Position numbers and translations under genes: made by a program
In this document: positions 38,757 to 59,488 of the stretch, piece after piece
Layout: each line of letters opens with the position of its first letter
How positions within the stretch are numbered: position 1 is the first letter of the stretch
Notes under the pieces: generated by a model
The model's input: only the letters and a program-made list of their open reading frames with translations
The model's database searches: none
What the model was told of the DNA's origin: nothing
NCBI RefSeq assembly: GCF_002205845.1
Contig: NZ_NISI01000018.1
Coordinates: 1-64,000, forward strand
Length of the DNA stretch: 64,000 bases
Source of the DNA: Roseateles puraquae
Lineage (GTDB): Bacteria > Pseudomonadota > Gammaproteobacteria > Burkholderiales > Burkholderiaceae_C
Direction of reading: 5' to 3'

Positions 38757-38844
38757 GAACACAGCCACAGAGACACAGACTCACAGAGAGCGCCGGTCAG
38801 AGGCACGAGCCCCTCGGTGTCTCTGTGCCTCTGTGGCGCTTTTC
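38757..38844. mobile_element. MITE-like remnant of the GxxExxY element between xylA and xylB
   Basis: 88 bp without a gene. Its left end matches the left end of the element at 57250 at 30 of 33 positions; GAACACAGCCACAGAG is identical, with changes at positions 17, 24 and 25. Its right end shares CTCTGTGCCTCTGTGGC with the right end of that element. Just inside the left repeat, CCGGTCAG...CACG resembles CCGGGTCAG...CACG of the gene-bearing copy. This suggests an internal deletion derivative. No target-site duplication is evident. It lies in the 158-bp gap between xylB and xylA, both on the minus strand. Confidence 0.75.
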
Positions 38845-56200: not shown

Positions 56201-57238
56201 ATGGACCTCACGATTGCCGCCATCCTCGGGCTCGACGGCCTCACCAACGGGGCCATCTATGCCTTGGTCGCCCTGGCCCTGGTGCTGGTGTTCTCCGTCA
56301 CCCGCATCATCTTCATTCCGCAGGGCGAGTTCGTCGCCTTCGGCGCGCTCACGCTGGCGTCGCTGCAACTCGGCAAGGTGCCGGGCACGGTGTGGCTGCT
56401 GTTGATGATGGCCGTGGCCGCGGCGGTGCTGGACGTCACGCAGGGACTGCGCGAGCGCTGGCCCGCCGGGCGATTCAAGTCCGTGCTGCTGAAGACGCTG
56501 GCGCTGCCCGTGGCCTTGTCGCTCGCCACCCCGTGGCTGCTGCAGCAACAGCCGCCCCTGTGGCTCCAGGTGCTGCTGACCCTGGCCATCGTCACCGCCA
56601 TGGGCCCGCTGCTGTACCGCCTGGCCTACCGCGCGCTGTCGGGCGCGAGCGTGCTGACGCTGCTCATCGTGTCGGTCGGCGTGCACTTCGCGCTGACCGG
56701 GCTGGGGCTCGTGTTCTTCGGGGCCGAGGGCTACCGAACACCGGCGTTCTGGGAGGCGCGCTTCGATGTCGGGCCGCTGAGCTTTACGGGCCAGACGCTG
56801 ATCATCTTCGGCGCCTCGGTGGCCTTGCTCGTGGCCATGTATCTGTTCTTCGAGCGCACCCTCACCGGCAAGGCGCTGCGGGCCACGTCGGTCAACCGCA
56901 CCGGCGCCCGGTTGATGGGCATCTCGGGGGATGCCGCCGGCAGCCAGACGTTCACCATGGCCGCCTTCATCGGCGCCCTGTCGGGCCTGCTGATCGCGCC
57001 GTCCACCACCATCTATTACGACACCGGTTTCCTGATCGGTCTCAAAGGCTTCGTCGCCGCGGTGTTCGGTGGCCTGGGCAGCTTCCCGATGGCGCTGTCG
57101 GGTGCCATCGGCGTGGGCCTGATCGAGAGCTTCGGCTCCTTCTGGGCCAGTGCCTTCAAGGAGGTCATCGTGTTCACGGTGATCCTGCCGGTGCTGCTGT
57201 GGCGGTCCTTCGTGGACCCGCACCACGAGGAGCATTGA
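56201..57238 (+). CDS. livH: Branched-chain amino acid ABC transporter permease LivH
   Basis: 345 aa, inner-membrane permease of a HAAT-family importer. Begins [39 protein letters not shown], the classic LivH start. Eight or more helices; the C-terminal SFRATSVNR-type loop ([21 protein letters not shown]-like) and [34 protein letters not shown] are typical. It is slightly longer than the usual 300 aa because of an extra segment around residues 65-125. The stop overlaps the GxxExxY ATG (TGATG). Confidence 0.92.
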
Positions 57239-57645
57239 TGGGCGACGCCGAACACAGCCACAGAGGCACAGAGGCACAGAGATACCGGGTCAGTGACACG
57301 GTCATCGCTGCTGCCATCGAAGTCCACAAGGAACTGGGTCCTGGCTTGTTCGAAAGCGCCTATGAGGCCGCCATGGATATCGAACTGAAGGCGCGCGGCG
57401 TGGAAGTGCAGCGCCAGTTGGAGGTGCCCATGACGTACAAGGGGCAGCCGCTGGGCTCCAGTTACCGCGTCGATCTGGTGGTGGAGCGCGAGCTGGTGGT
57501 GGAGCTCAAGGCCGTCGAGCGCCTTGCCCCTGTTCACACCGCCCAGGTGCTGACCTATCTGCGGCTGCTGAAACTGCGCGCCGGCTTGCTGATCAACTTC
57601 AATCACGCCCAGCTTCGACAAGGTGTGAAGAGGATTTCGCTGTGA
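57238..57645 (+). CDS. GxxExxY family protein, PD-(D/E)XK nuclease-like
   Basis: 135 aa. The diagnostic GLFESAY (Gly36, Glu39, Tyr42) is present, and Asp79 with Glu89-Leu-Lys91 (YRVDLVVERELVVELKAVE) matches the D...ExK core of the PD-(D/E)XK superfamily; LTYLRLLKLRAGLLINF completes the fold. The biological role of the family is not established. Residues 5-15 (EHSHRGTEAQR) are encoded by the left inverted repeat, and the only possible start, ATG 57238, lies outside the element, overlapping the livH stop. Thus the gene appears to borrow its start from the host operon. It interrupts the liv transporter genes and has no evident link to amino acid uptake. Confidence 0.9.
   Translation: MGDAEHSHRGTEAQRYRVSDTVIAAAIEVHKELGPGLFESAYEAAMDIELKARGVEVQRQLEVPMTYKGQPLGSSYRVDLVVERELVVELKAVERLAPVHTAQVLTYLRLLKLRAGLLINFNHAQLRQGVKRISL
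57250..57282 (+). repeat. Left 33-bp terminal inverted repeat of the GxxExxY element
   Basis: Starts GAACACAGC and continues with three tandem octamer units of CACAGAGG type, the last ending CACAGAGA. It is the perfect reverse complement of 57654-57686. It also codes for the N-terminus of the GxxExxY protein. Confidence 0.9.
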
Positions 57646-57653
57646 ACCCGCTC

Positions 57654-57686
57654 TCTCTGTGCCTCTGTGCCTCTGTGGCTGTGTTC
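57654..57686 (-). repeat. Right 33-bp terminal inverted repeat of the GxxExxY element
   Basis: Reads TCTCTGTGCCTCTGTG and ends GGCTGTGTTC, the exact reverse complement of the left end. It lies between the GxxExxY stop and livM. A long in-frame extension of livM would read through it, which is why ATG 57704 is preferred for livM. Confidence 0.9.
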
Positions 57687-57703: not shown

Positions 57704-59488
57704 ATGACGTCTTTGAAACGTGCCCATTTCGCGGCAGTTGCCGCGCTCGTGCTGCTCGTGCTGCCCTTCGTGCCGGTGCCCGATTTCTGGATCACGCAGC
57801 TCAACTACATCGGCCTGTTCTCGCTGGTCGTGCTTGGGCTCGTGCTGTTGACCGGTGTCGGCGGCCTGACCTCGTTCGGGCAGGCGGCGTTTGCCGGTGT
57901 CGGCGCTTATACGACGGCCTACATGAGCACGGTCATGGGCCTGTCGCCCTGGCTCGGACTGGTGGCGGGGCTGGCCATCACGCTGGTGCTGGCCCTGGTC
58001 ATCGGGGCGCTGACGCTGCGCATGTCGGGCCACTACCTGCCGCTGGCCACCATCTGCTGGTGCCTCGCGCTGTACTACCTCGTCGGCAACCTGGAGGCCC
58101 TGGGCAAGTACGACGGGCTGCTCGGCCTGCCGGCGCTGCAACTGGGCGACTTCAGCTTCCGGAGCGAGCGGCGCATCTACCTGCTGATCTGGGCAGCGGC
58201 GCTGCTGGCAGCGGTGGGCGTGACCCGGCTGCTGGACTCGCGGCCCGGGCGCATCATGCGCGCGCTCAACACCAACCGCGGTGGCGGCGCCACCATGCCC
58301 GAGGCCATGGGCGCGAGCACCTTCCGCTACAAGCTGGTGATGTTCGTCGTGGCCGCGCTGCTGGCCTCGCTGTCGGGCTGGCTGTATGCGCACATGCAGC
58401 GCAGCGTGAACCCCTCACCCTTTGGCATCAAGTTCGGCATCGAGTACCTGTTCATGGCGGTGCTCGGCGGCATTGGCACGGTGGGCGGAGCGTTCACCGG
58501 CGCGGCACTGGTCAAGCTCGCGGAGGACCAGCTCAAGGTCTGGCTGCCGGTGGTGTTCGGCGGCTCGGGCAACTACGAGATCATCGTGTTCGGCGTGGTG
58601 CTGGTGCTGGTGCTGCGCTTCGCGCCCGAGGGGCTGTGGCCGCTGTTGGCGCGCTGGCTGCCCGCCCGCGGCCACAAGGCGGTGGACGAGCAGGCACCGC
58701 GGCTGTCCGCTCGCAGCCATCCGCCGCGCGGCGCCGCGCTGCTGGATGTGCGCCAGATCCGGAAGCAGTTCGGCGGGCTGACGGCCGTCAACGACATCAG
58801 CTTCACCATCCGTGCCGGCGACATCGTCGGCCTGATCGGCCCGAACGGCGCAGGCAAGAGCACCACCTTCAACCTGGTGTCCGGCGTGCTGCCGCTCACC
58901 GCCGGGGAGGTCGAGCTGCTGGGCCAGCGCGTGGACGGCCGTGGCAGCCGGGCCATCGCGCGGGCGGGGCTCTCGCGCACCTTCCAGCACGTCAAGCTGG
59001 TGCCCGACATGACGGTGCTCGACAACGTCGCCCTCGGCACCTATCTGCGCACCCGCACGGGCACGCTGCGCGCCATGCTCGGCCTGAATGGCGCCGAGGA
59101 GGCCCAGGCCCGCGCCGAGGCGATGCGCCAACTGCGCCGCATCGGCCTGGATGGCCAGGCCCATGAGCTCGCTGGGAACCTGGCCCTTGGCCCGCAACGT
59201 CTGGTGGAAATTGCGCGTGCGCTGGCCAGCGACCCGTCGCTGCTGCTGTTGGACGAACCGGCCGCTGGCCTGCGCCACAAGGAGAAGGCCGCGCTGGCCG
59301 ATGTGCTGCGCCAGCTGAAGGCCGAGGGACTGTCCCTGCTGCTGGTGGAGCACGACATGGACTTCGTGATGAAGCTCACCGACCGCATCGTCGTCATGGA
59401 ATTCGGCCGCCACTTGATGGAGGGCACGCCCGCCGAGGTGCAGGCCAGCCCGGCCGTGCGCGCGGCCTACCTGGGGGCAGAAGAATGA
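57704..59488 (+). CDS. Fused LivM-LivG branched-chain amino acid ABC permease/ATPase
   Basis: 594 aa. N-terminal LivM permease (residues 1-320; NYIGLFSLVVLGLVLLTGVGGLTSFGQAAFAGVGAYTTAY, and GIKFGIEYLFMAVLGGIGTVGGAFTGA) joined to a LivG ATPase (about 345-594) with Walker A IGPNGAGKST, a GLSRTFQHVKLVPDMTVLDNVALG stretch, an atypical signature region NLALGPQRLVEIARAL and Walker B LLLLDEPAAGLR. Such fusions are known in Betaproteobacteria. The LivG signature reads LALGPQR instead of LSYGxQR. ATG 57704 lies 18 bp past the mobile element. The stop overlaps livF. Confidence 0.92.
   Translation: MTSLKRAHFAAVAALVLLVLPFVPVPDFWITQLNYIGLFSLVVLGLVLLTGVGGLTSFGQAAFAGVGAYTTAYMSTVMGLSPWLGLVAGLAITLVLALVIGALTLRMSGHYLPLATICWCLALYYLVGNLEALGKYDGLLGLPALQLGDFSFRSERRIYLLIWAAALLAAVGVTRLLDSRPGRIMRALNTNRGGGATMPEAMGASTFRYKLVMFVVAALLASLSGWLYAHMQRSVNPSPFGIKFGIEYLFMAVLGGIGTVGGAFTGAALVKLAEDQLKVWLPVVFGGSGNYEIIVFGVVLVLVLRFAPEGLWPLLARWLPARGHKAVDEQAPRLSARSHPPRGAALLDVRQIRKQFGGLTAVNDISFTIRAGDIVGLIGPNGAGKSTTFNLVSGVLPLTAGEVELLGQRVDGRGSRAIARAGLSRTFQHVKLVPDMTVLDNVALGTYLRTRTGTLRAMLGLNGAEEAQARAEAMRQLRRIGLDGQAHELAGNLALGPQRLVEIARALASDPSLLLLDEPAAGLRHKEKAALADVLRQLKAEGLSLLLVEHDMDFVMKLTDRIVVMEFGRHLMEGTPAEVQASPAVRAAYLGAEE

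Follow-up and report, generated by a model that had tools for sequence, protein, structure and literature searches.

What is a small nuclease-like gene, bounded by perfect inverted repeats, doing in the middle of an operon for branched-chain amino acid transport? The question is raised by a locus in the 64,000-nucleotide stretch of Roseateles puraquae DNA analysed here (hereafter the window). The initial annotation had described a 437-bp segment bounded by perfect 33-bp inverted repeats, holding one GxxExxY ORF and no transposase, and placed between livH and a fused livM-livG; all these features were recovered by repeat and profile searches (Table 1). The repeat search of the window returned the same two 33-bp arms, the pair growing to 41 nt at 95% identity if mismatches are allowed, and the arm-to-arm span of 437 bp contains a single ORF, which matched TIGR04256 (cut-off 35) and PF13366 (cut-off 22) at 148.3 bits. 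In Pfam and NCBIfam at E 0.001, the ORF between the arms gave only PDDEXK_3 / GxxExxY and no transposase family. This ORF can start at an ATG that overlaps the livH stop, so that the left arm is also coding, and it is co-directional with the liv genes on both sides. The downstream gene is called a livM-livG fusion since a single ORF carries both a permease and an ATPase domain.

Table 1. Features of the liv locus, and a second member of the hairpin family, in the window
Feature	Coordinates	Strand	Remarks
Left arm, inverted repeat	57250..57282	+	About three 8-bp CACAGAGG units behind GAACACAGC; also N-terminal codons if the ORF starts at 57238
GxxExxY gene (TIGR04256 / PF13366, PD-(D/E)XK fold)	57238..57645	+	135 aa; ATG overlaps livH stop
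Right arm, non-coding	57654..57686	-	Perfect reverse complement of the left arm
livH, branched-chain amino acid permease, left neighbour	56201..57238	+	PF02653
Fused livM-livG, permease and ATPase, right neighbour	57704..59488	+	PF02653 and ABC_tran in one ORF
Gene-less hairpin with the same arms, second family member in the window	38757..38837		DNA fold z -2.1

An AlphaFold2 model based on 61 sequences had a pLDDT of 90.5 and a pTM of 0.84. In these 61 sequences D79 and K91 were invariant and E89 was present in at least 90%, and in the model these residues lie on the strands 76-82 and 86-91; alignment and model together indicate a predicted active site in which the PD-(D/E)XK catalytic residues are kept. 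Foldseek returned no match to the model at E 0.001 or below. Its best, weak matches fell in the Cas4 / lambda exonuclease group of PD-(D/E)XK nucleases (SSO0001, 4ic1, TM 0.53, E 0.003, which we take to be a Cas4 protein; lambda exonuclease, with 6m9k among the best), followed further down the list by tRNA splicing endonucleases and an archaeal Holliday junction resolvase. Searched by sequence, the PDB gave no relative up to E 1, PADLOC gave weak Cas4 matches (best E 0.0013) and PHROGs one weak match, to a family of unknown function. In the portions of the open-licence literature that were covered, no description of a role for GxxExxY was found: the name occurs there as that of a mere neighbouring domain, and PF13366 in passing. 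Neither PDDEXK_3 nor any of six arm sequences was mentioned in the open-licence library searched.

Arms of this kind are common at GxxExxY loci. One scan of genome contigs gave 587 candidate loci, the best 80 of which were analysed; their labels include proteobacteria, planctomycetes, cyanobacteria, Bacteroidetes, Chloroflexi, acidobacteria, Verrucomicrobia, Methanothrix and others. An arm pair (score at least 14) was found at 60 of these 80 loci, compared with 2 of 271 shifted control placements in the same loci, so the pairs are not due to chance; loci at contig edges count as misses here, and some of the 20 loci under the threshold lie at such edges. Each arm consists of purine-rich units, 8-10 bp long and repeated in tandem (CACAGAGA, ACGCAGAGG, ACGCGAAGG, CACGAAGG and others). 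Copies within one genome differ in unit, yet the two arms of each copy tend to agree: G465, for example, has seven copies with about six kinds of unit. For the 75 loci left after five of the 80 were dropped for contig edges, the locus's own right arm was the best or tied-best partner of its left arm at 32 (29 strictly), where about one would be expected. Copy number reached 11 in the 50 carrier genomes drawn from the 80 loci, and one 8-bp pattern had at least five matches on each strand in 16 of these 50 (carriers only, a single arm type). No GxxExxY element was matched in a phage collection, and plasmid matches were limited to five records, each below 60% identity. Repeats are present around GxxExxY genes at other loci and in other positions than liv, yet no copy was seen to move; nor was any insertion or movement event observed among the genomes compared.

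In the genome of the window, the arms are not confined to the gene. Allowing up to three mismatches, the arm pattern matched at 84 places on the forward strand and 85 on the reverse, the gene's own arms included. Among 100 places listed, 76 make 38 convergent pairs with starts 37-99 bp apart, and none occurs in the opposite order; these pairs form gene-less hairpins of about 60-100 bp. Twenty stretches were fetched, picked since most showed a pair, and 19 proved to be hairpins of 63-96 bp with arms of the same kind and loops of 2-38 nt. Other genera have hairpins of the 9-bp type, most of which exceed these lengths, with a maximum of about 200 bp. DNA folding was poor for the left arm region alone (z -1.2), in contrast to z -2.1, -5.0 and -9.5 for three whole hairpins. 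Stop-free frames span 28 of 40 hairpins, compared with all 39 control places; in some frames the arms themselves contain no stop codon.

Most loop sequences look unrelated between copies. The hairpins of G002 show recurring loop lengths, and a pair of them located at unrelated sites, L294 and L295, differ at one of 18 loop bases in a comparison by eye, which is a sign of copying. Among four regions with matching flanks, the second hairpin of the window (Table 1) is present in G017 and absent at the aligned junction in G010, G012 and G015. Alignments of filled and empty junctions could not be read for target duplications, since the intergenic flanks of these relatives are too diverged between species. 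Two terminal subtypes, GAACACAGCC and AATGCAACC, were noticed in G002 hairpins and at different GxxExxY genes (L296, L297, L303, L305, L004 and L036); occurring at both hairpins and genes, they may represent subfamilies that each had a gene of their own.

The hairpins track the gene within the genus. The GxxExxY gene is carried by five of the 20 genomes of the window's genus that were sampled, and the forward/reverse arm matches of these five (84/85, 185/186, 67/72, 96/98 and 98/83) are the five highest of the 20. Non-carriers had 61/59, 34/33, 25/26, 23/19, 19/19, 12/15, 8/4, 2/0, 1/2 and 1/1 matches, and 0/0 in five cases (Mann-Whitney P = 0.0006, n = 20). Seven of the 15 genomes without the gene keep 8-61 forward matches (G010 and G007 having the most), which we read as relics after loss of the gene. 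G010, with the highest count, is sister to a genome that has the gene (G014); this looks like a recent gene loss, in a genome listed with 6% contamination.

The same association was found in a sample of 200 genomes of the bacterial family, of which 14 carry GxxExxY. Hairpin families, defined as at least three matches on each strand, were present in nine of the 14 carriers and in one of the 186 other genomes (Fisher P = 2e-11, a value that ignores kinship and rests on thresholds set after the counts were seen and on two arm patterns taken from carriers' arms). Since the patterns were designed from carriers, gene-free genomes whose hairpins are built from a different unit would escape detection. 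First, the 9-bp pattern reached nine or more matches in seven carriers (G034, G053, G082, G089, G101, G115 and G131) and in no other genome, the top non-carrier being G084 with 6/2. Second, the 8-bp pattern had at least three matches on each strand in three carriers (G000, G032 and G053); the sole non-carrier to reach this level was G006, which belongs to the window's genus, and two more non-carriers had 7-8 matches in a single one-strand array. Carriers also differed from gene-free members of their own genera: 42/57 in G034 compared with 0/0 in G164, 51/59 in G089 with 1/0 in G194, 132/139 in G115 with 3/0 in G215, and 21/23 in G032 with 0/0 in G162. A reversed-pattern control was not independent, because a reversed CACAGAGG or GTGAGTA array is close to a rotation of the same array, and the balance between strands and the comparison with gene-free genomes carry the weight instead.

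The type of arm follows the gene as well. Thirteen of the 15 GxxExxY genes of the family sample lie between arms scoring at least 15, and each of the nine hairpin-rich carriers has at least one hairpin family with the arm type of its own gene. With the two patterns tried, five of the 14 carriers had no hairpin family; among them are G031 and G140, whose genes are the two without arms and which gave zero matches with either pattern. A further hairpin family (L313-L315), of the CACAGAGG type (21/21), was observed in G053, whose single GxxExxY gene has ACGCAGAGG arms.

We propose, with a probability of roughly 0.55, that the locus belongs to a system with two components, a GxxExxY gene between arms and gene-less hairpins with the same arms, of which the segment represents the former, and that the PD-(D/E)XK protein acts on the paired arms. 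The protein would recognise the arms once they are paired, as single-stranded hairpin or cruciform DNA, and would cut at the base of the paired arms; host repair or replication would then copy the hairpins to new places. In the host's bacterial family the GxxExxY gene is itself mostly single copy, being inherited or lost as RAYT genes are. We infer these steps of binding, cutting and copying, a role of the gene as cause rather than companion of the hairpins, and likewise mobility and its target sites. The data suggest that a nuclease is paired with parasitic DNA hairpins, a partnership not described before.

The closest precedent is the REPIN / RAYT system, in which many hairpins coexist with one gene beside the same repeat (PMC3116915, in the text available). 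As there, many short hairpins are made of two inverted repeats, and a single-copy gene, apparently not self-mobile, is associated with the same repeat. The enzymes differ, however (PD-(D/E)XK here, a Y1 HUH tyrosine transposase for RAYT); the arms here are tandem 8-10 bp units whereas REPs are palindromic, and the gene here lies inside the arm pair. Because enzyme and repeat differ, the GxxExxY system is not a member of REPIN / RAYT. If our proposal is true, the plan of REPIN-RAYT has arisen a second time around an unrelated enzyme, and the GxxExxY family gains a concrete and testable partner in the hairpins that carry the gene's own arms.

MITEs are short, gene-less, multi-copy elements with terminal inverted repeats, and the gene-less hairpins share all these properties. 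In contrast to the MITEs of insertion sequences, which the introduction of PMC3116915 also treats, the gene-bearing partner here has no transposase, just a nuclease-fold protein of about 135 aa. The hairpins might nevertheless be ordinary non-autonomous elements moved by another enzyme (a RAYT or an IS transposase), GxxExxY being a passenger that uses the same ends. We consider this rather unlikely, since GxxExxY genes are found repeatedly between arms of this kind across many phyla, and since from one genus to another the hairpins change their arm type in step with the arms of the gene itself. It would account for G053 and G006, which have hairpin families without a matching gene, and it accords with the open-licence literature, in the parts covered, where no cutting activity of GxxExxY was found. 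It also agrees with the age of the liv copy, for which the history of the junction provides the evidence.

Within the genus, the gene and its repeats are not shared by all relatives at livH-livM: they occupy this junction in four of the 20 genomes (G000, G002, G014 and G017), and the gene lies elsewhere in G008. Thirteen of the 16 genomes without the gene at liv (G008 included) pass from livH to livM within about 10 nt, which bears out the supposition that the two genes are normally contiguous. The others are G003, in which merely a 33-bp match to livH was found, and G011 and G019, which have no element and other sequence after livH. In these last two (L017 and L024) the sequence directly after livH is mutually similar and is not GxxExxY; it is perhaps another repeat at the junction.

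Between the four filled species, the left arms are identical at 32-33 of 33 positions (six pairs) and the right arms at 31-33 of 33, compared with 6-17 of 17 for the 17 bp past the right arm. The 363-bp core is identical at 285-351 of 363 positions and the first 300 bp of livM at 239-276 of 300; for the G000-G002 pair the values are 292/363 for the core and 243/300 for livM. As judged from these alignments, the liv insertion is old, its core being about as diverged as livM, and the arms, the non-coding right one included, are constrained or homogenised. A fresh insertion at liv is excluded by the equal divergence of core and livM, and by the presence of the copy in four species at the same site. 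Vertical inheritance at liv with no loss is not supported either: gene presence is patchy on the livH tree, many forks of which are weak, with G010 empty next to its sister G014 (support 88/84) and G002 grouping apart. The initial annotation had suggested that the product might be the mobility nuclease, or that the element might be mobilised in trans. That idea is strengthened by the gene-less hairpins, which have the same arms and track the gene. It does not hold for the liv copy as a recently mobile element, since divergence among species is about equal for the core and for livM, and the hairpins kept by seven of the 15 gene-free congeners speak against it as well.

A parallel to the GxxExxY loci was found with S23 (23S_rRNA_IVP), a second small protein, whose genes occur in 43 of the 249 genomes examined from the phylum. 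Thirty S23 loci were taken and three dropped at contig edges; 17 of the remaining 27 lie between arms of mostly 7-bp units, compared with none of 54 controls. Of the 43 S23 carriers, 16 had matches on both strands to a heptad pattern derived from S23 arms; none of the 206 other genomes did. Fourteen of 17 places fetched, most of which had been picked for nearby two-strand matches, were heptad hairpins too small to hold a gene. S23 loci and their hairpin relatives are L130-L159, L190-L193 and L327-L343. Two unrelated small proteins, GxxExxY and S23, thus share one plan. Like the intervening sequences of 23S rRNA with S23, as the available part of PMC4990558 presents them, the GxxExxY segment has one small gene in a long terminal stem, a span of about 430 bp and a scattered occurrence. 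It differs from them in its protein and in its units (7 bp in S23 arms), and as an rRNA insertion it can be rejected: no rRNA match was found in the GxxExxY loci searched (two S23 rRNA loci left out) and none in the window, the whole 64 kb of which gave no Rfam match.

In Coxiella, a 28-bp stem of the S23 intervening sequence is cut by RNase III (PMC4990558, text seen in part). The arms of GxxExxY might similarly act in RNA, as a transcript stem processed by RNase III or by the GxxExxY protein itself, which would make insertions into operons tolerable; pairing would then be kept by selection on RNA rather than by DNA mobility. The shared architecture is in favour of this, as are two S23 copies of G432 that lie inside 23S rRNA genes with stuttering arms (of the two copies outside, one is armed and one armless), and the co-directional position of the window's gene between two liv genes. 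We nevertheless regard an RNA role as unlikely, as processing alone leaves dozens of gene-less, gene-tracking copies unexplained. Finally, a host or defence nuclease of the Cas4 kind, with the hairpins as its binding or regulatory sites rather than mobile DNA, could be proposed from the weak PADLOC and Foldseek similarities to Cas4, and is very unlikely, given that a hairpin present or absent at an orthologous junction, copy-specific arms and the near-identical L294/L295 loops look like a spreading family.

The two-part system of gene and hairpins, proposed above for the segment, may extend further. GxxExxY proteins could be the mobility nucleases of miniature hairpin elements in many bacterial phyla, and perhaps in some archaea, with S23 serving a parallel class that includes the intervening sequences inserted in 23S rRNA, and transposition proceeding through the cleavage of hairpin or cruciform DNA by a PD-(D/E)XK enzyme. 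We put this forward tentatively, as a possibility somewhat on the doubtful side. To our knowledge, no miniature element is known to be driven by such cutting alone. The function and origin of rRNA intervening sequences are termed unclear in the accessible text of PMC4990558, and the S23 parallel offers a source for them.

GxxExxY genes were also observed repeatedly at another junction. Eight of the 15 genes of the family sample (L037, L040, L041, L042, L043, L045, L047 and L048) directly precede a gene whose start resembles TrpG, as the motif DNYDSF[TV]YN presumably indicates; this makes the trp operon junction a repeated or an old home of the gene. Both armless copies sit at this trp junction.
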